From: Streptomyces sp. NBC_00390
Lineage (GTDB): Bacteria; Actinomycetota; Actinomycetes; Streptomycetales; Streptomycetaceae
Direction of reading: 5' to 3'
DNA: 64,000 bases
Assembly (NCBI RefSeq): GCF_036057275.1
Contig: NZ_CP107945.1
Coordinates: forward strand, 4,030,001 to 4,094,000
Position 1 is the stretch's first letter; every line of letters begins with the position of its first letter. Positions 55 to 7,826 of this stretch are shown piece after piece. The position numbers and the translations under genes are program-made. A model generated the notes under the pieces. The model made no database searches and was not told where the DNA came from. It saw only the letters and a program-made list of their open reading frames with translations.

Positions 55-783
55 TCAGACCCTCTCGTGCACCGCGTCCGGGACCACCGGAGCGCACTCA
101 CGGACCCTGACGCGCCACAGCCACCTGATGTCCCGCCCGAAGGACCAGACGAGCAGCGCCAGTGCCACCAGGACCGCCGTGTGGGCGGCCAGGAGCGGCA
201 GGACGCCTGCGGCGGCGACGAGCAGGACGATCCCCTGCATCGCGGCCACCGTCTTACGGGCCATGCTCGGCGGCAGCGGCCCGTTCAGCCACGGAAGTGC
301 CCGGGCGGCCGCGACGAAGACGTAGCGCATGACGCCGATCAACAGCACCCATGCGCCCAGCGACATGGCGACGTAGACGCTGAGCACCAGGATGAGGAAG
401 GCGTCGACCTCCATGTCGAAGCGCGCCCCCAAAGGGGACTCCGTCCCTGTGCGCCGCGCGACCTGGCCGTCGACCGCGTCCAGCGCCAGCGCCACCGCGG
501 TGAGGACGACCAGCACCGCGACCGGCGGGGGGCTCGCGAAGGAGTCCGCGACCAGCGCGGTCACCCCTCCGACGAGCATCGTCCGGGCCAGGGTGACACC
601 GTTGGCCGGTCCGAACGGCCTGTGCCACGACCGGCGCAGGGCTCGCGTGAGCAGGGCCCAGGTGCCGACCGTGAAGGCCAGACCCGTCAGCCATCCCGCG
701 GGCCCCAGTCCGATCACCGCGCCGAGAAGGCCCAGCAGGACCGACTGCACGGCCGCACCGGCGGCCGCCGCCGGGCACAGCAC
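55..783 (-). CDS. CDP-alcohol phosphatidyltransferase family protein
   Basis: Integral membrane enzyme of the family that moves a phosphoalcohol from a CDP-linked donor to an alcohol acceptor. The signature D-x2-DG-x2-AR-x8-G-x3-D-x3-D is complete (D102, D105, G106, A109, R110, G119, D123, D127). Hydrophobic segments surround it over about 242 residues, the usual size. I chose the GTG at 783 because no in-frame ATG lies near and the sequence upstream is not protein-like; the frame stays open further upstream only because of base composition. It is divergent from the MDR dehydrogenase at 928 and flanks the GTP-derived cluster. Phosphatidylglycerophosphate or phosphatidylinositol-phosphate type donors are possible; the substrate cannot be read from sequence. 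A role in attaching a phosphodiester head group to the cluster product is inference only. Confidence 0.85.
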   Translation of the reverse strand: MLCPAAAAGAAVQSVLLGLLGAVIGLGPAGWLTGLAFTVGTWALLTRALRRSWHRPFGPANGVTLARTMLVGGVTALVADSFASPPPVAVLVVLTAVALALDAVDGQVARRTGTESPLGARFDMEVDAFLILVLSVYVAMSLGAWVLLIGVMRYVFVAAARALPWLNGPLPPSMARKTVAAMQGIVLLVAAAGVLPLLAAHTAVLVALALLVWSFGRDIRWLWRVRVRECAPVVPDAVHERV

Positions 784-927
784 CCTTGTGTCATATGTGT
801 GGCTCAGAGCCAACGCGCACCACCCTCCGGCTGTGTGACAGAGTCGATGAGTGCCGCGTACCGTGTGCGCCGCCTCATGATTACCAGAACGGAATCCGTT
901 ACCCGAGCGTTCAGCAGGAGGACGTCG

Positions 928-1926
928 ATGGAGCGCGCCGCACGCGCCTTCTGGCTCCGCTCCCCCGGCCAGGGCGAGATACGGGATGTCTCCCTGCCCG
1001 AGCCGGGCGGCGACGACGTCGTGGTGCGCACGCTGTGTTCCGGGGTGAGCCGTGGCACGGAGAGCCTCGTCTTCCGCGGCGGCGTGCCCCGAAGCCAGCA
1101 CACCGCGATGCGGGCGCCGTTCCAGGACGGCGAGTTCCCCGGGCCGGTCAAGTACGGCTACCTCAATGTCGGCCTCGTCGAGGAAGGGCCGCACCACCTC
1201 GTCGGACGCACGGTCTTCTGCCTCTATCCGCACCAGAGCCGGTACGTCGTCCCGGCGAGTGCCGTGACCCTCGTACCGGACACCGTGCCCGCCGGGCGGG
1301 CGGTGCTGGCCGGGACCGTGGAGACCGCGGTGAACGCCCTGTGGGACGCCGCGCCGATGGTCGGCGACCGGATCGCCGTCGTGGGAGCCGGCATGATCGG
1401 CTGCTCCGTGGCCGCTCTTGCCGCCCGGTATCCCGGCGTCCGCGTCCAGCTGATCGATTCCGACCCTGCCCGAGCCGCCGTGGCCGAGGCGCTGGGCGTC
1501 GACTTCGCCCTCCCCGAGGACGCACTGGGCGCCTGCGACCTCGCCGTCCACGCCAGCGCCACCGAGGCCGGACTGGCTCGCTCACTGGAGCTCCTCGCCC
1601 CGGAGGGAACGGTGCTGGAGCTGAGCTGGTACGGCGACCGCCGGATCAGCGTGCCGCTGGGGGAGGCCTTCCACTCCGGCCGGCTGGTCCTGCGCGGCAG
1701 CCAGGTCGGTCGGGTGTCCGAGGCACGGCGCTCCCGCCGGACCTTCGCCGACCGGCTCGCGCTCTCGCTCGAACTGCTCGCCGACCCCGCCTTCGACGCA
1801 CTTGTCACGGGAGAGTGCGCGTTCGAGGAGTTGCCGTCGGTCATGTCCCGGATCGCCGCCGGCGAACTTCCCGGGCTCTGCCACCGCGTCGTGTACGACA
1901 CGGCCGCACCACCGGCTTCGGCCTGA
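928..1926 (+). CDS. MDR-family (zinc alcohol dehydrogenase-like) oxidoreductase
   Basis: Medium-chain dehydrogenase/reductase of 332 residues, cytoplasmic and probably NAD(P)-dependent. Residues 33-60 match the N-terminal GroES-like domain (LCSGVSRGTES), and residues 151-158 are the Rossmann loop VVGAGMIG. The usual GHE zinc segment is not visible: the matching area reads FPGPVKYGY. This resembles the BchC/threonine-dehydrogenase-like branch rather than classical alcohol dehydrogenases. The start ATG at 928 has a CAGGAGG site six bases upstream. It is followed after 116 bases by the tunnel-fold gene and three overlapping genes, all on the same strand, so it probably takes part in the same pathway as an oxidation or reduction step. 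Substrate unknown. Confidence 0.85.
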   Translation: MERAARAFWLRSPGQGEIRDVSLPEPGGDDVVVRTLCSGVSRGTESLVFRGGVPRSQHTAMRAPFQDGEFPGPVKYGYLNVGLVEEGPHHLVGRTVFCLYPHQSRYVVPASAVTLVPDTVPAGRAVLAGTVETAVNALWDAAPMVGDRIAVVGAGMIGCSVAALAARYPGVRVQLIDSDPARAAVAEALGVDFALPEDALGACDLAVHASATEAGLARSLELLAPEGTVLELSWYGDRRISVPLGEAFHSGRLVLRGSQVGRVSEARRSRRTFADRLALSLELLADPAFDALVTGECAFEELPSVMSRIAAGELPGLCHRVVYDTAAPPASA

Positions 1927-2042
1927 ATCTCCGGTCCGGATCTCCGAACGACCTGGGCGTTTGAACACGCAGTACGCTCCGGCCGTACTGAAAGGCAGGG
2001 GCCGTCAGCGGCCGCATGCTTCCGACCGGGAGGTCACAGCCG

Positions 2043-2441
2043 TTGTTCAGCGTCACCGTCCGCGAGCACCTCATGATCGCTCACAGCTTCCGCGGAGAGG
2101 TCTTCGGACCCGCACAGCGTCTGCACGGAGCGACGTTCCTTGTGGACGCCACCTTCCGCCGTCCCGAGTTGGACGCCGACAACATCGTCGTCGACATCGG
2201 CCTGGCCACCAGTGAACTGGGTTCGGTGGTGGGTGAGTTCAACTACCGCAATCTCGACGACGAGGCCCAGTTCGAGGGCATCAACACCTCAACGGAGTTC
2301 CTGGCCAAGGTGATCGCCGACCGGCTGGCCGACCGGGTGCAGGCCGGCGCGCTGGGCGAGGGCGCCCGCGGCCTGACCGGCATCACGGTCACCCTGCACG
2401 AGTCGCACATCGCGTGGGCGAGTTACGAGCGGTCTCTGTGA
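2043..2441 (+). CDS. 6-pyruvoyltetrahydropterin synthase/QueD-like tunnel-fold protein lacking catalytic residues
   Basis: 132-residue T-fold protein related to PTPS and 6-carboxytetrahydropterin synthase (QueD). Against E. coli QueD, His14 and His28 match two zinc ligands, but the third ligand is Ala30. The catalytic Cys is replaced by Ala24, and the Asp-His pair by Asn67-Tyr68. The pterin-anchoring Glu120 (TLHES) and the TSTE motif at 82-85 remain. The S. coelicolor homologue SCO6650 is known from its crystal structure to lack zinc and the catalytic triad while keeping a pterin-type pocket, and this protein fits that description. I chose TTG 2043 because GGGAGG lies at 2028-2033 and the protein then starts like the family ([15 protein letters not shown]); the ATG at 2016 has no good RBS. 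The stop overlaps the next GTG. Likely a different reaction or a binding role on a GTP-derived ligand. Confidence 0.9.
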
Positions 2442-3568
2442 ACCACGCAGCCGCCGCCCTCCCCGAGCGCTCCGTGCGGGTCGTGATGCCCGGGGGCGTC
2501 GACGATCCGGCGGCGCCGAGCGGCGGCAACATCTACGACCGCCGGGTGTGCCGGGACCTGCCCCAGGTCGGCTGGCAGGTCCACGAGCACCTCGTCGCCG
2601 GCGCATGGCCGCAGCCCGGGGCCACCGCGCGTGCGGAACTGGCCCGGATCCTGCGGGAGTCGGCGGACGGCACCGTCGTCCTCCTCGACGGAATCGTCGC
2701 CTGCGGCGTCCCCGACGTCATCGTGCCCGAGGCCGAGCGGCTGCGTCTGGCGGTGCTGGTGCATCTGCCGCTGGGCGACGAGACGGGACTCGCCCCGGAG
2801 ACGGCGGCGGCTCTGGACGCCGCGGAGCGCAGGACGCTGCGGGCCGTGGCAGCGGTCGTGGCGACCAGTGACTGGGCGGCCGACCGGCTCGTGGAGCACC
2901 ACGGGCTCGAGGCCGGCCGGGTCCATGTCGCCGCCCCCGGGGCCGACATAGCTCCGTTGGCTGCCGGCACCGCATCCGGCACCGACAGCGCGCCGCGCCT
3001 GCTGTGCGTCGCCTCGGTGACCCCGCGCAAGGGGCAACTCGAGCTGGTGGAGGCCCTCGGAGCCGTCGCCGGTCTGCCGTGGAGCTGCACCTTCGTCGGC
3101 GGACTGGCCCACGACCCCGGCTACGTCGCCCGGCTCAGGAAACTGATCGGTCGGTACGGCCTCGACGAGAGGGTGCACCTCGTCGGCCCCCGGACCGGCG
3201 CCGGGCTGAACGCGAGTTACGCCGCCGCCGACCTTCTGGTGCTCGCCTCCCGTGCCGAGACGTACGGCATGGCCGTGACCGAGGCTCTCGCGCGGGGCGT
3301 TCCCGTACTGGCGACGGCCGTCGGCGGAGTCCCGGAAGCGGTCGGGCACGCGCCCGGCGGCGGCGTGCCGGGCGTCCTCGTGCCGCCGGCGGATCCGGCG
3401 GCACTCACTGCGGCGTTGCGCCACTGGCTCAGCGAGCCCGGCGAGCGCCATCGTTCGAAGGTGGCCGCGCGAGGCCGGCGCACGGCGCTGGCGGGCTGGG
3501 AGACGACCTCGCGAAGCCTTGCCAAGGCGCTTGAGCAGCTCCGGCTGGAGCCTCGGAGGAACATATGA
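2438..3568 (+). CDS. Glycosyltransferase, GT4-like (GT-B fold)
   Basis: 376-residue cytoplasmic glycosyltransferase of the GT-B fold. The N-terminal half starts with a GGNIYD segment, typical of acceptor-side loops. The C-terminal half carries the nucleotide-sugar region: [20 protein letters not shown], then the E-x7-E motif in [12 protein letters not shown], followed by [18 protein letters not shown]. The GTG start overlaps the stop of the tunnel-fold gene in GTGA, and its own stop overlaps the methyltransferase start, so translation is probably coupled. I infer that it glycosylates the product of the cluster. Donor and acceptor are unknown. Confidence 0.87.
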
Positions 3569-4467
3569 ACGGGACCGACCGACCTCGTTACGCGCCGGAG
3601 TGGCTGGCACTGCGGGAGGGCGCCGACGCCGCCGCCCGCGCACCCGAACTCCTCGGCCCGCTGCGGCAGCACCTGGAGAACGCCGAGCGAGGGGCCGCGG
3701 GACTGGTGGTACGCGACCTCGGCTGCGGCACCGGTTCCATGGGGCGCTGGCTCGCCCCCCGGCTGAACGGTCCGCAGCACTGGATCCTGCACGACCACGA
3801 CCCGGAGCTGCTCGAACTGGCCGCCGCGCAGATGCCCCGTACCGCCGCCGACGGCAGCCCCGTCACGGTCACGACGGAACCCGGCGACATCGCGCGCCTG
3901 ACCGCCGAACGCCTCGCCGGCACCTCGCTGGTGACGGCCTCCGCACTGCTGGACCTGCTCACCCGCGACGAACTGGACGCACTCGCCGCGGCCTGCGCCG
4001 GGGCCCGCTGCCCGGCCCTGCTGGCGCTGTCCGTGGTGGGGCGGGTCGACCTCACCCCGGCCGACCCGCTGGACGCCGCGATCACCGACGCGTTCAACGC
4101 CCATCAGCGCCGCGTCGATGACGGCCGCCGGCTCCTCGGGCCCGACGCCGTGGCGGCGGCCTCCGTGGCCTTCGCGCACCACGGTCTGACCGTACGGGCG
4201 CAGCCCAGCCAGTGGCAGCTCGGTCCTGGCTCCCGGCTCCCGGCGGCCTCCGCGCAGCCGGGCGCGGGCTCCGACGGGTCCGCGCTGGCGGCGGAGTGGC
4301 TGCGGGGCTGGGTGAGCGCCGCCTGTGAGCAGCAGCCGGATCTCGCGCCGCGCGCCGACACGTATCTGCAGAGCCGCCTGGCGGCGTGCGAGGCAGGTGA
4401 GTTGCGGGTGGTGGTGCATCACAGCGATGTGCTGGCCGTGCCCAGGCCGGCCGGCGGTACCTCGTGA
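3565..4467 (+). CDS. Class I SAM-dependent methyltransferase
   Basis: 300-residue methyltransferase-fold protein. SAM motif I is clear as VRDLGCGTGSMGRWL (around residues 51-65), followed by an acidic strand end (LHDHDPELLELA) that would hold the SAM ribose. The later part diverges from well-known families, so the methyl acceptor cannot be named. The ATG overlaps the glycosyltransferase stop by 4 bases, with GGAGG just upstream, and the stop overlaps the membrane-protein GTG. Linked translation with both neighbours suggests that methylation is one step in the same pathway. Confidence 0.85.
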   Translation: MNGTDRPRYAPEWLALREGADAAARAPELLGPLRQHLENAERGAAGLVVRDLGCGTGSMGRWLAPRLNGPQHWILHDHDPELLELAAAQMPRTAADGSPVTVTTEPGDIARLTAERLAGTSLVTASALLDLLTRDELDALAAACAGARCPALLALSVVGRVDLTPADPLDAAITDAFNAHQRRVDDGRRLLGPDAVAAASVAFAHHGLTVRAQPSQWQLGPGSRLPAASAQPGAGSDGSALAAEWLRGWVSAACEQQPDLAPRADTYLQSRLAACEAGELRVVVHHSDVLAVPRPAGGTS

Positions 4468-6398
4468 TCCCGCAGGCGCTCCGGGCCCGGCTGGGCATGC
4501 TCGTGGGAGCGGCCGTCCTGGCGGCGATGCTGTGGTGGCAGGGCACCGGCGCCTTCCTCGACGGCCTGCGGGGGATCGACGGCCCCACCCTCCTGGCCGC
4601 TCTGGGCCTCGGCCTGTTCACCACCGTGCTCAGCGCGTGGCGCTGGCGCCTGGTGGCCCGCGGTCTGAGCATCGAGCTGCCGCTGGGCCGGGCCGTCGCC
4701 GACTACTACCGCGCCCTGTTCCTGAACGCCGCGCTGCCCGGCGGCGTCCTCGGCGACGTGCACCGCGCGGTACGGCACGGGCAGAGCTCCGGTGACGTCG
4801 GCCGGGGCGTCCGCGCGGTCGTCCTCGAACGGGTCGCGGGCCAGGTGGTCCTGATCGCGGTCGGCGTGGCGCTCCTGGTCGCGCAGCCTTCCCCGGCCCT
4901 GGCGGAGGCCGGCCGTGCCGCCCGCCACCACGCCACGTCGCCGGGCGCCGTGGCGGTCCTCGCCGTGGTGTGCGCTCTTGCGACGGTCGCCGCAGTCCGG
5001 CGCCGCCGGAAGCCGGACACCTCACACCCCGGGAAGCCGGACACATCGCGCTGGCGCCGCACGGTGCGCGCCACGTTCGCCGAGGCGCGGCTCGGGCTGC
5101 TCGCCCGCGCCAGCTGGCCGGGCGTGCTGCTCTCGTCCCTCGCCGTGCTGGCGGGGTATCTCGGCATGTTCCTGCTCGCCGCCCGGGCCGCCGGATCAAC
5201 GGCGCCTGCCGCCGAGTTGCTGCCTCTGATGGTCCTGGCCCTGCTCGCCATGGCGCTGCCGCTCAACGTCGGCGGCTGGGGGCCCAGGGAAGGAGTCACC
5301 GCCTGGGCCTTCGGAGCCGCGGGAATGGGCGCGGGCCAGGGGCTGACCGTTGCCGTGGTGTACGGACTACTGTCCTTCGCCGCGAGCCTGCCCGGTGTCG
5401 GCGTGCTCGTCGTCCACTGGTTCGCCGGGATCCGGCGTCGGCAGGTCGAGCTCGAAGAGGGTGTCCTCGCCGAGGGCCGCGCGCCGCACCGGCGGCCGCA
5501 GGGCGTCCCGCATCAGCTCAGGACCGGGGAAGCGGAGCCCCGGGACGCCGTCGCCGATCAAAACCGGCGCCACGGTGACGTAGAGCCGGTGCAGCGCGCC
5601 CTCGTGGAGAAAGCGCGACACGGTCACGCCGCCGCCCTCGACGAGTACGCGGCCCAGGCCGCGTCGCGCGAGCTCCCGCACCAGGCGCCCGGGGGTGAAC
5701 GCCGCGCTGTCGGGCAGGGTCAGCACATCGACGCCCTTGAGGTCCGCAGCGGCCTGTTCGCACTCACGGCCGGCGCCCACCACCCACAGGGTCGGGGCAG
5801 CTCCGTCGCTGAACACCTGGCTGTGCAGCGGTACTCGGCCGTGCGGATCGAGGACGACGCGCACCGGGTGGGCACCCGGGCAGGCGCGGACCGTCAGCCG
5901 GGGGTCGTCCGCGACGGCGGTACCGGCCCCGACGACCACCGCGTCGGCGAGCGCGCGCAGCCGGTGCAGATGCTCGCGGTCCTCCTCGCCGGTGACGTAG
6001 TCGGCATCGCCGGTCCGGGTCGCGATGAAACCGTCAAGGCTCTGCCCCAGCTGCGCGAAGGTGAAGCGCGGTCCGGCCAGACACAGCGACAGATAGCGGT
6101 CGGCGAGGACATCCGCCTCGGGCGAAGCGTTTCGCCACCGGCGCCGGCCGTCCGCGCCCGGGAACAGCCCGGCGGCTTCGGCGTCCGCCTCGGTCCGGAT
6201 GCCGAGCAGCAGCTCCCAGGCTCCCGACGCGTCGAGCGTGCCGCCCCGGTGGGCGGCGGTGGGGCCGGTCACAGGGACTCCGCCGGAGTCAGGAGGGAGA
6301 TGTACGCCGCGAAGCATTCGACGAGACCTGCCAGCAATTCCTTACCCTTCTCGGCCGACGCCAGTGACGGACGGCCGACCACACCGGACTCCGTGTAG
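4464..6398 (+). CDS. Polytopic membrane protein, LPG-synthase TM-domain/UPF0104 type; 3' end uncertain
   Basis: Begins at the GTG overlapping the methyltransferase stop. About 325 residues (4464 to about 5450) form a multi-helix membrane protein with the layout of the lysylphosphatidylglycerol-synthase transmembrane domain (UPF0104): an early helix, AWRWRLVARGL, LFLNAALPGGVLGDVHR, ERVAGQVVL, and a later NVGGWGPREGVTAWAFG. These proteins often act on or export lipid-linked molecules. Oddity: the frame has no stop after the last helix (VGVLVVHWFAGIRRR) and runs on to 6396-6398, antisense to the reductase gene at 5367-6272. That tail is not protein-like. The true protein probably ends near 5450, and a single C-to-T change at 5442 (CAG to TAG) would give such an end, so a lost stop or a sequence error is possible. 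Confidence 0.7.
   Translation: MIPQALRARLGMLVGAAVLAAMLWWQGTGAFLDGLRGIDGPTLLAALGLGLFTTVLSAWRWRLVARGLSIELPLGRAVADYYRALFLNAALPGGVLGDVHRAVRHGQSSGDVGRGVRAVVLERVAGQVVLIAVGVALLVAQPSPALAEAGRAARHHATSPGAVAVLAVVCALATVAAVRRRRKPDTSHPGKPDTSRWRRTVRATFAEARLGLLARASWPGVLLSSLAVLAGYLGMFLLAARAAGSTAPAAELLPLMVLALLAMALPLNVGGWGPREGVTAWAFGAAGMGAGQGLTVAVVYGLLSFAASLPGVGVLVVHWFAGIRRRQVELEEGVLAEGRAPHRRPQGVPHQLRTGEAEPRDAVADQNRRHGDVEPVQRALVEKARHGHAAALDEYAAQAASRELPHQAPGGERRAVGQGQHIDALEVRSGLFALTAGAHHPQGRGSSVAEHLAVQRYSAVRIEDDAHRVGTRAGADRQPGVVRDGGTGPDDHRVGERAQPVQMLAVLLAGDVVGIAGPGRDETVKALPQLREGEARSGQTQRQIAVGEDIRLGRSVSPPAPAVRAREQPGGFGVRLGPDAEQQLPGSRRVERAAPVGGGGAGHRDSAGVRREMYAAKHSTRPASNSLPFSADASDGRPTTPDSV
5367..6272 (-). CDS. RibD C-terminal (dihydrofolate-reductase-like) pyrimidine reductase
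   Basis: 301-residue protein. From about residue 71 on it matches the RibD reductase domain (QLGQSLDGFIA, then VVVGAGTAVADDPRLT and VLVEGGGVTVSRF). This domain uses NADPH to reduce the ribosyl side chain of a diaminopyrimidine or aminouracil phosphate. The N-terminal 70 residues do not contain the zinc-binding HAE and PCx8C motifs of the RibD deaminase, so it is a reductase without a deaminase. I start it at GTG 6272, which overlaps the stop of the upstream creatininase-family gene in GTGA. Archaea and fungi reduce before deaminating, and this arrangement would fit that order. The 3' end lies antisense to the end of the membrane-protein gene. Confidence 0.87.
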   Translation of the reverse strand: MTGPTAAHRGGTLDASGAWELLLGIRTEADAEAAGLFPGADGRRRWRNASPEADVLADRYLSLCLAGPRFTFAQLGQSLDGFIATRTGDADYVTGEEDREHLHRLRALADAVVVGAGTAVADDPRLTVRACPGAHPVRVVLDPHGRVPLHSQVFSDGAAPTLWVVGAGRECEQAAADLKGVDVLTLPDSAAFTPGRLVRELARRGLGRVLVEGGGVTVSRFLHEGALHRLYVTVAPVLIGDGVPGLRFPGPELMRDALRPPVRRAALGEDTLFELDLPTPDPGEPVDDEHADTGQARGEGQ

Positions 6399-7021
6399 GC
6401 CCGCAGCCCGAGAGTGAGCATATGTTCCCGGTCATCGGCGAGAAAATCAGAGGTCTCATAACCGGGCCGGACCAATTCAGGATGGTCGTGCAGCAGGATG
6501 GACGTCTCGACCTCGCCCGCGTGCATATCGCTGGCCGACGGCGTACGCACACCGGCCCGTTCCCGCGCCGCATTCCAGTCGGCCGGTCCGGGAAAGAGCG
6601 CCATGCGAGTGCCGGTTCCGGCGGACTCCTGAACCACGTTGCGCAGTACGTAGTTTCCGCCGTGACCGTTGATCAGTACCAGGTTGGTGATACCCGACCG
6701 GCGGAGGGATTCGGCTATGTCCTGCACGACCGAATGGAGGGTCGCGGCGGAAATGCTGACGGTCCCCGGCCAGGCGGCGTGTTCGTGCGAGCAGGAGATG
6801 GTCAGCGGCGGCAGGCAGTGCACCGGGTGGGCGGACGCGACCTCCCGGGCTATGGCGCAGGCTATGACCGTGTCGGTCATCAGCGGGAGAAACGGGCCAT
6901 GTTGCTCGAAACTGCCGATGGGAAGGACGGCGACAGCGGCCTGACGGGCCCTCACATCGTCGGTCGTCGTGTCCAGCGGCAGCAGACCGAGCACCGGCGG
7001 TCGCACATGCGGGCCACTCAT
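6269..7021 (-). CDS. Creatininase-family amidohydrolase, candidate FAPy deformylase (ArfB-like)
   Basis: 250-residue metal-dependent amidohydrolase. The metal-binding pattern is intact: E39 and H41 in SFEQHGPFLPL, D50, NGHGGN with H120, and HAGE with E170. The family includes creatininase and the archaeal formamide hydrolase ArfB, which removes the formyl group from FAPy, the product made by its divergent neighbour's close relative. Start ATG 7021 is preceded by GAAAGGG; the longer open frame upstream is not protein-like. Its stop overlaps the reductase start, so the two form a coupled pair divergent from the GTP cyclohydrolase gene. Family call is strong. The deformylase function is inference from context; mycofactocin-type or creatinine hydrolysis are less likely here. 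Confidence 0.88.
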   Translation of the reverse strand: MSGPHVRPPVLGLLPLDTTTDDVRARQAAVAVLPIGSFEQHGPFLPLMTDTVIACAIAREVASAHPVHCLPPLTISCSHEHAAWPGTVSISAATLHSVVQDIAESLRRSGITNLVLINGHGGNYVLRNVVQESAGTGTRMALFPGPADWNAARERAGVRTPSASDMHAGEVETSILLHDHPELVRPGYETSDFLADDREHMLTLGLRAYTESGVVGRPSLASAEKGKELLAGLVECFAAYISLLTPAESL

Positions 7022-7157
7022 GTTCCCGACCCTTTCTCTCTTCGTTCCACGAGATACGGCCGCCGGGCGGCCAGATCGCCGAAATTGTCGAATATCGCGT
7101 ACCAGCAGGCCGGTTGACCCGCTCGTCGATTTCGAACCCAAACCGAAGGCTACCCGA

Positions 7158-7163
7158 TAGGAT
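7158..7163 (+). promoter_or_regulatory. -10 box TAGGAT of a likely leaderless transcript
   Basis: TAGGAT ends 6 bases before the ATG at 7170, so the expected transcription start falls on the start codon. No convincing Shine-Dalgarno site precedes the ATG. A -35 box is not obvious. The 148-base gap to the divergent creatininase gene must hold promoters for both directions. Confidence 0.5.
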
Positions 7164-7169
7164 CTTGCC

Positions 7170-7826
7170 ATGATAGAACCCGATGACGCATACCGCGACA
7201 ATGTTCGTGCTGCGGGCGTCCAGCGCGTGGCACATGTCCGGCTTTCCACCGAGCACGGTGTTTTTCTCGCGGTCGGCTATCTGGACCGCGTTCGCGGGGA
7301 CGAGCAAATAGCGTTGGTATACGGGGACATCGAGGGAGAAGGAGCCCTTACGCGCGTTCATTCGGAGTGCCTGACCGGAGACGCCTTCGGGTCCAGGCAC
7401 TGTGAATGCGGGGACCAGCTGTCCGCGTCCTTGCGTGCCATCGTCGACGAGGGACGCGGCGTCCTGCTCTACCTCAAGGGTCACGAGGGGCGGGGAATCG
7501 GCCTGTTGGCGAAACTTCAGGCGATGCAGCTGCAGGCGGAAGGGATGGACACCGTCGAGGCCAACCTCGCACTCGGACTCCCGGCCGACGCCCGCGACTT
7601 CCGGGTGGCGGCGGACATGCTCCACGACCTCGGTGTGCGCTCCGTACGGCTGTTGTCGAACAACCCGCGCAAGCGTGAGTCCCTCCTCCAGCACGGCATC
7701 AAGGTGAGCGAGCAGGTTCCGCTGCTGACGCAGCCGCGCGAGGAGAACATCTTCTATCTGCAGACCAAGCGGGAGCGGTTCGGCCACCTCCTTCCCCACC
7801 TGGACCGCATGGCCGACAGGTCCTGA
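7170..7826 (+). CDS. GTP cyclohydrolase II homologue (RibA family), predicted FAPy-forming
   Basis: 218 residues, matching the GTP cyclohydrolase II domain alone, with no RibB fusion. The zinc ligands C67, C78 and C80 are present (HSECLTGDAFGSRHCECG). GTP-binding and catalytic segments are seen at EGRGIGLL (106-113), MDTVEANLALG and NNPRKRESL. The key residue that is Tyr in true RibA (RAYALQ in E. coli) is Met119 here (QAMQLQ). In S. coelicolor SCO6655 the equivalent Met120 makes the enzyme stop at 2-amino-5-formylamino-6-ribosylaminopyrimidinone 5'-phosphate (FAPy); changing it to Tyr restores the riboflavin intermediate. I therefore predict FAPy formation. It is divergent from the creatininase/reductase pair. 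It is probably not the housekeeping riboflavin gene. Confidence 0.93.
   Translation: MIEPDDAYRDNVRAAGVQRVAHVRLSTEHGVFLAVGYLDRVRGDEQIALVYGDIEGEGALTRVHSECLTGDAFGSRHCECGDQLSASLRAIVDEGRGVLLYLKGHEGRGIGLLAKLQAMQLQAEGMDTVEANLALGLPADARDFRVAADMLHDLGVRSVRLLSNNPRKRESLLQHGIKVSEQVPLLTQPREENIFYLQTKRERFGHLLPHLDRMADRS

Follow-up and report, generated by a model that had tools for sequence, protein, structure and literature searches.

A conserved Streptomyces gene set, pairing a GTP cyclohydrolase II that lacks Tyr105 with a creatininase-family protein, as a probable branch from the start of the riboflavin pathway

What might a cell make with nine contiguous genes that place a GTP-opening enzyme beside a glycosyltransferase, a methyltransferase and two membrane proteins? 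The question is raised by positions 55 to 7,826 of a 64,000-nucleotide stretch of Streptomyces sp. NBC_00390 (contig NZ_CP107945.1, positions 4,030,001 to 4,094,000; genome size 8.69 Mb), the whole of which we refer to as the window. An original prediction, made from the letters of the window alone, had suggested a compact cluster for an undescribed GTP-derived compound that is glycosylated and methylated, with a pyrimidine or pterin core and perhaps a link to a lipid or polyol phosphate. Our analysis makes it probable that the set is a dedicated biosynthetic unit that leaves the riboflavin pathway at its first steps; its product would be a diaminopyrimidine or pterin that carries a sugar and a methyl group and may be attached to a lipid. 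The nine genes are as follows.

CDP, 55-783, minus strand: CDP-alcohol phosphatidyltransferase family membrane protein (PF01066, CDP-OH_P_transf, 53.7 bits; GTG start at 783, TTG at 813 also possible)
MDR, 928-1926, plus strand: BchC-like medium-chain dehydrogenase (NCBIfam BchC, 44 bits, cut-off 291; AlphaFold model with MDR fold, pLDDT 89)
PTPS, 2043-2441, plus strand: tunnel-fold protein, orthologue of SCO6650, TTG start (PF01242, 77 bits; 3d7j, E 7e-71)
GT, 2438-3568, plus strand: GT4-type glycosyltransferase (PF00534, Glycos_transf_1, 94 bits)
MT, 3565-4467, plus strand: S-adenosylmethionine-dependent methyltransferase (PF13649, Methyltransf_25, 32 bits; AlphaFold pLDDT 92)
TM, 4464-5440 with the end approximate, plus strand: polytopic membrane protein of LPG_synthase_TM/flippase-like type (PF03706, 136 bits)
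RIBD, 5367-6317, minus strand: stand-alone reductase with a RibD_C domain (PF01872, 135 bits; GTG at 6272 also possible)
CRN, 6269-7021, minus strand: creatininase-family hydrolase, proposed FAPy deformylase (PF02633, 220 bits)
GCH, 7170-7826, plus strand: GTP cyclohydrolase II with Met for Tyr105 and a CECG motif, proposed to form FAPy (PF00925, GTP_cyclohydro2, 212 bits)

Eight of the nine products scored above a Pfam family cut-off and MDR, which fell below it (ADH_zinc_N, 27 bits, cut-off 31.8), was placed by its predicted fold; positions and named families are thus as originally predicted. Third-codon-position GC is 0.78-0.92 across the nine genes, high as in real genes, which indicates that all are coding, and none contains a TTA codon when TM is taken to 5440. 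The two coupled gene sets with four-base overlaps that had been proposed are real, all four overlaps being exact: GTGA at 2438-2441 (PTPS/GT), ATGA at 3565-3568 (GT/MT), GTGA at 4464-4467 (MT/TM) and, on the minus strand, GTGA at 6269-6272 (CRN/RIBD). As to extent, the nine genes do lie where they were predicted, but the TM frame remains open to 6398 and the set extends leftward beyond the window, as described below. A PHROGs search with PTPS and GCH, the only two proteins tried, gave no match. With regard to TM, its frame (4464-6398, plus strand) is stop-free well past its domain and runs antisense across RIBD for more than 900 bases; an open tail of 326-372 amino acids is also seen in L057, L058, L061, L064 and L091, and in L081-L083 the tail ends after 28-29 amino acids.

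The nine genes form one unit. Using PTPS as bait we collected 176 loci (labelled L, with genomes labelled G), 159 of which have both PTPS and MDR in the fetched stretch. Among these 159, GT is present in 158, CDP in 146, MT in 145, TM in 144, GCH in 126, CRN in 115 and RIBD in 42, counts that are lowered by contig ends and by the limited length of the stretches. The order and orientation seen in the window, CDP-MDR-PTPS-GT-MT-TM-(RIBD)-CRN-GCH, recur in 72 of the first 100 neighbourhoods (56 without RIBD and 16 with it), and in six others GCH and CDP are placed on the left. These 100 neighbourhoods consist of 80 named and 20 fetched loci, and the named ones are biased to near relatives because they are the best 80 of 582 matches. 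Synteny in 72 of these 100 loci, which come mostly from near relatives, excludes a chance grouping. PTPS was found in 24 of 100 related genomes; within the genus the count is 22 of 61, and a sample of 296 genomes from the class yielded 46, some with weak matches. MT is present in 22 of the 24 PTPS-bearing related genomes and gave one weak match (G037) among the other 76; of the two without a match, G001 has its PTPS about 1.1 kb short of a contig end and G077 has a PTPS that is just 52% identical.

Conservation of the core extends to another class. Sixteen loci with weak phylum-level PTPS matches were fetched, and L177 and L178 were examined in addition. Six of the sixteen carry RIBD, MDR, PTPS and GT together and come from six genomes of one family (f58) outside the class; the CDP and TM profiles had no match in the fetched stretches of these genomes, and a methyltransferase follows the core in L180 and is fused to GT in L181. 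The other ten (L184-L188 and L190-L194) lack MDR, and a QueD-type Cys is present in all eight that were aligned (L192 and L193 lie outside the alignment). Further evidence of unity comes from open frames that join neighbouring genes: GT and MT share one frame in L169 as well as L181, and GCH is fused to RIBD in L076, L126 and L169, the order of the two parts being the same in all three. This second fusion may have arisen twice, as the RIBD part of L126 and those of L076 and L169 sit in different clades of a quickly built tree without support values. A possible GT-MT fusion in L077, where the matches share a frame, was not counted since the match to MT is split in two close to the end of the contig. 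Conservation ends at GCH on the right, where nine frames were tested and yielded one match, in one of the 176 loci. Taken together, the neighbourhood comparison found the genes to co-occur, in other families too, and made one shared pathway well supported. The expectation that all nine would co-occur was too strict, given that RIBD is missing from 117 of the 159 loci, that GCH and CRN are often absent jointly and that a tenth gene appears in some lineages.

The 17 loci without MDR are of three kinds: orphan PTPS genes (L128, L137, L144 and L175), contig-cut loci (L177 and L229) and loci outside the cluster (L178, L184-L188 and L190-L194). The four orphans are from Streptomyces and have no other cluster gene in the fetched stretch; L128 and L144 have neighbours in common, and both a cluster and an orphan PTPS are found in S. 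tendae (L087 and L137) and in G020 (L174 and L175). The MDR proteins are identical within the pairs L130/L255 and L151/L238, each of which is probably one strain sampled twice.

The strongest clue to the chemistry comes from GCH. The window protein has Met where 2bz0 and 4i14, the GTP cyclohydrolases II of E. coli and M. tuberculosis, have Tyr105, and an S. coelicolor enzyme with this same change, SCO6655, reportedly stops at the formamide FAPy. GCH was found in 129 loci, of which 113 lack Tyr at E. coli position 105, 15 have it and one is unreadable. All 112 loci with both GCH and CRN lack the Tyr (Met in 74, His in 30, Leu in 5, Gln in 2 and Asn in 1). Conversely, the 17 GCH loci without CRN in the stretch comprise the 15 Tyr loci, one locus with Leu (L258) and one unreadable remnant (L114). 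The genome of L258 does have a CRN, 63% identical and about 13 kb from PTPS, beyond the fetched stretch. One of the Tyr loci, L184, is a riboflavin operon and no member of the cluster, so that the Tyr group amounts to 14 clusters; whole-genome searches of two Tyr genomes, G269 and G168, revealed no close CRN, the best-scoring relatives being 31% and 27% identical. GCH type and CRN therefore go together. In a blind scan of the GCH alignment, only E. coli positions 105 and 66 fully separated the 15 Tyr from the 113 non-Tyr proteins; at position 66 the Asp between two cysteines, which are zinc ligands, is Glu (CDCG to CECG) in all 113. In the Streptomyces celluloflavus locus L114 (13235-14732), we observed that GCH has shrunk to a remnant and RIBD is retained, with no CRN found in the locus.

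How much independent evidence this correlation provides can be judged from a tree of 62 loci based on MDR, PTPS and GT, which samples 18 of the 55 loci with Met and no RIBD, contains none of 40 loci added later and was used without L184 and L114 for the trait analysis. GCH type and presence of CRN each change only twice on this tree, in agreement in both independent pairs. Complete as it is, the correlation goes back to only about two evolutionary switches.

CRN can be aligned with solved creatininases, and E39, H41, D50 and H120, residues of the creatininase metal site, are invariant in all 22 aligned sequences. There is precedent for a member of this family acting on FAPy: BrbF of Sinorhizobium meliloti deformylates FAPy to the diaminopyrimidine and serves riboflavin (PMC9478397). 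The same paper describes its FAPy-forming cyclohydrolase as "yet to be discovered" (PMC9478397); here, CRN adjoins a candidate for just that type of partner. CRN is likened to BrbF here by family and described function. Given that a Tyr-less GCH occurs with CRN, that such an enzyme is said to stop at FAPy and that BrbF deformylates FAPy, CRN would be a FAPy deformylase. That the route starts from GTP, as originally predicted, is supported, and it most likely passes through FAPy. A third arrangement has neither GCH nor CRN at the cluster. Of 11 such genomes that were searched, ten carry a single GTP cyclohydrolase II, whose frame length (427-729 residues) is that expected of RibBA; the eleventh, G847, gave three matches. 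The three variants (non-Tyr GCH with CRN, Tyr GCH alone, and neither) would converge on 2,5-diamino-6-ribosylaminopyrimidinone phosphate and would fit a demand for this compound, which is also made in riboflavin synthesis.

A reductive step next is supported by the GCH-RIBD fusions and by the best structural match of RIBD, which is 6p8c, a 2,5-diamino-6-ribosylaminopyrimidinone phosphate reductase (97 bits, versus 87 for RibD 2b3z). Pfam found only the RibD_C reductase domain in RIBD and no deaminase domain; under the curated archaeal reductase model TIGR01508 the protein scored 103 bits, below the cut-off of 186. Genomes whose cluster lacks RIBD may have such a reductase elsewhere: G305, G314 and G356 have a stand-alone one of the Tyr-cluster type, and G007, G013, G040 and G049, all of the window's genus, have a reductase-domain protein with, by eye, a deaminase-like second part. 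These proteins are unproven candidates for serving the pathway. In G013 a second GTP cyclohydrolase I adjoins a RibD_C protein away from the cluster (C1:7128408-7129707), perhaps as part of another GTP-derived pathway.

PTPS is a tunnel-fold protein that appears to have lost the chemistry of its family. Relative to rat PTPS, which has a catalytic Cys, an Asp-His pair, three zinc His and a ring-anchoring Glu, the Cys is replaced, the Asp-His pair is lost (LDH has become FNY in the window) and HGH has become HGA, so that in the window's clade the second His is Ala and one zinc ligand is missing; the six f58 relatives have kept HGH and have also lost the Cys. In contrast, E120 is invariant in 13 of 13 aligned sequences and aligns with the Glu of rat PTPS, which anchors the 2-amino-4-oxo ring. 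We read this as a protein that may bind a pterin-like or diaminopyrimidine ring and do other chemistry on it. For MDR, there is weak likeness to BchC, an enzyme that acts on a ring-bound hydroxyethyl group; a fold search with its AlphaFold model returned general dehydrogenase matches only, and the best matches of the MT model were methyltransferases of a general kind, neither search indicating a substrate. The zinc motif usual for medium-chain dehydrogenases, a Cys followed by GHE, was not seen in the conserved columns of MDR, and this weakens the idea that it oxidizes a polyol.

To the left of the window lies a candidate tenth gene:

Sulfatase-like protein, 611 residues, L295:10097-11929 (window about -1904 to -72), convergent with CDP: sulfatase match of 20.6 bits, cut-off 25

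Its single solved match, a weak one (E 0.024), is lipoteichoic acid primase. A homologue is present in 26 of the 176 loci and shares an open frame with the CDP domain in ten of them, so the sulfatase-like gene is probably a member of the set in those lineages. Together with GT, MT, TM and CDP, it suggests that the pathway includes glycosylation, methylation and a step at the membrane.

A probable scenario that accommodates these data runs as follows: (i) GCH would open GTP and, because Tyr105 is absent, stop at FAPy; (ii) CRN would remove formate to give 2,5-diamino-6-ribosylamino-4(3H)-pyrimidinone 5'-phosphate, a compound that a Tyr GCH would yield directly in other relatives and that, where both GCH and CRN are missing, would probably come from the riboflavin enzyme RibBA; (iii) RIBD would reduce the ribosyl to a ribityl chain with the 2-amino group retained; (iv) the conserved Glu of PTPS would hold the 2-amino-4-oxo ring, and PTPS and MDR together would reshape the side chain or close a pterin ring; (v) GT would add a sugar and MT a methyl group and (vi) TM, CDP and the sulfatase-like protein would act on the product at the membrane, coupling it to lipid, transferring a headgroup or exporting it. 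FAPy formation and deformylation we infer with good support; steps (iv) to (vi) and the final structure are more tentative. A more specific version can be imagined, in which RIBD reduction is followed by MDR oxidation of the ribityl 2'-hydroxyl, the ketone closes onto the 5-amino group, PTPS without its triad guides ring closure or side-chain chemistry, and the pterin, made independently of GTP cyclohydrolase I, is glycosylated, methylated and coupled to lipid by CDP, the sulfatase-like protein and TM as a new class of lipid-anchored redox cofactor. We regard this version as a distinctly long shot.

Several observations weigh against a dedicated branch of the riboflavin pathway, or against the role given to CRN in it. 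RIBD is absent from most loci, some of which are cut, and no substrate is known for any of MDR, PTPS, GT, MT, TM and CDP. A sign test on two evolutionary changes cannot reach significance. L261 was scored as CRN-bearing, and its copy by the cluster is a fragment, the full copy lying about 25 kb off. CRN fails the curated ArfB model (38.9 bits, cut-off 180); BrbF is itself described as lacking similarity to ArfB (PMC9478397). From the same source, two more distant BrbF homologues failed in complementation (PMC9478397), so membership of the creatininase family alone is no proof of deformylase activity. Could CRN be a mycofactocin-type peptidase or a true creatininase with no link to FAPy? The best NCBIfam model for CRN is indeed mycofactocin MftE, at 142.7 bits, and CRN is found without a matching GCH nearby in L138 and G919. 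CRN occurs in the fetched stretch without GCH in four of the 159 loci. Contig ends cut L237 and L245, and the GCH of L260 lies just beyond the stretch, which leaves L138 (Sciscionella marina), with CRN by the cluster and no GCH within 10 kb on either side, as the one clear local exception; in G919, one of the ten genomes with a single GTP cyclohydrolase II, a CRN homologue lies away from the cluster. The MftE score is nevertheless below its cut-off of 172, and CRN lies beside the cluster in 112 of 113 readable non-Tyr GCH loci (the L258 copy being the exception) and is absent from all 15 Tyr loci, which makes this alternative improbable.

The set could be two merely adjacent units, one for an envelope glycolipid (GT, MT, TM, CDP and the sulfatase-like gene) and one for a GTP-derived compound (GCH, CRN, RIBD, PTPS and MDR), and 18 of the 159 loci, some on cut contigs, do lack GCH, CRN and RIBD and keep other genes. 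We think this unlikely since MDR, PTPS and GT, which fall on both sides of such a divide, stay together in 158 of the 159 loci, PTPS and GT overlap by four bases, and in the other class RIBD stays with MDR, PTPS and GT in stretches where CDP and TM gave no match. There is only a slim chance that the set provides ordinary flavin, F420 or folate by a second route. GTP cyclohydrolase II, RibD-type reduction and deformylation do belong to riboflavin and F420 synthesis, BrbF does serve riboflavin, and a FolB (dihydroneopterin aldolase) gene is divergent beside the RIBD-MDR-PTPS-GT core in L180 (5539-6030, by Pfam) and L181 (10101-10475, by eye). The genome, however, has at about 7.05 Mb of its chromosome a second GTP cyclohydrolase II, which has Tyr and a 688-residue frame and is preceded at about 2 kb by a RibD; neither riboflavin nor folate synthesis has a use for GT, MT or TM; within the genus the set occurs only patchily; and neither lumazine synthase nor riboflavin synthase is among the nine genes, as would mark a riboflavin operon. 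Folate replacement, raised by the FolB genes, was rejected because all 16 genomes tested have GTP cyclohydrolase I, so folate supply is not the reason for the set in those genomes. Least credible of all is a 7-deazapurine or queuosine-type pathway with the tunnel-fold protein as QueD. PTPS has the family fold and a weak QueD match (TIGR03367, 33.6 bits), against which stand a cut-off of 89 bits, a feeder enzyme that is GTP cyclohydrolase II rather than I and the replaced Cys and Asp-His pair and the zinc His missing from the window's clade; loss of the catalytic residues rules out a QueD or PTPS identity for this protein.

Viewed as a branch from the GTP/riboflavin trunk, the set combines known enzyme families in a way that we did not find described. 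The archaeal ArfA-ArfB-ArfC route to riboflavin and F420 has the same order of chemistry as we propose, with FAPy, deformylation and, at ArfC, reduction before deamination; it uses GTP cyclohydrolase III, whereas the cluster uses GTP cyclohydrolase II and creatininase-family parts. The 8-azaguanine (ptn) cluster of Streptomyces likewise converts GTP by ring opening to a diaminopyrimidine of this kind, but it uses the GTP cyclohydrolase I-like PtnA and a nitric oxide synthase, and among the parts described in the excerpt at hand there is no MDR-PTPS-GT core (PMC7109123). Within the PTPS/COG0720 family (QueD, PTPS-II, PTPS-III), the window protein shares the tunnel fold and the Glu anchor and lacks the catalytic Cys and Asp-His pair; PTPS-V is listed as of unclear function (PMC5041015). 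Literature searched by SCO numbers, by family names and by their combination named no product for this gene set. The claim that the system is undescribed holds to that extent, and has to be qualified in that its tunnel-fold protein has been solved, as SCO6650 of Streptomyces coelicolor (3d7j), and that SCO6655 has reportedly been studied as a FAPy-forming enzyme. The spacing of the SCO numbers suggests, from numbering only, that S. coelicolor has a version (PTPS, GT, MT, TM, CRN and GCH) without the RIBD that the window has. One paper counts SCO6655 among the GTP cyclohydrolases II (PMC2853524).

Retention of the unit in several families of actinobacteria suggests that its product benefits the cell. 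The proposed FAPy-forming GTP cyclohydrolase II would be an enzyme of the type that, in BrbF bacteria, awaits discovery according to the statement quoted above (PMC9478397), and Glu66 together with a residue other than Tyr at position 105 provides a simple two-residue signature by which to recognize it. The first intermediates being known and accessible by enzymatic synthesis, a hunt for the metabolite is practical. Finally, the pathway would give SCO6650, solved but unassigned, a role.

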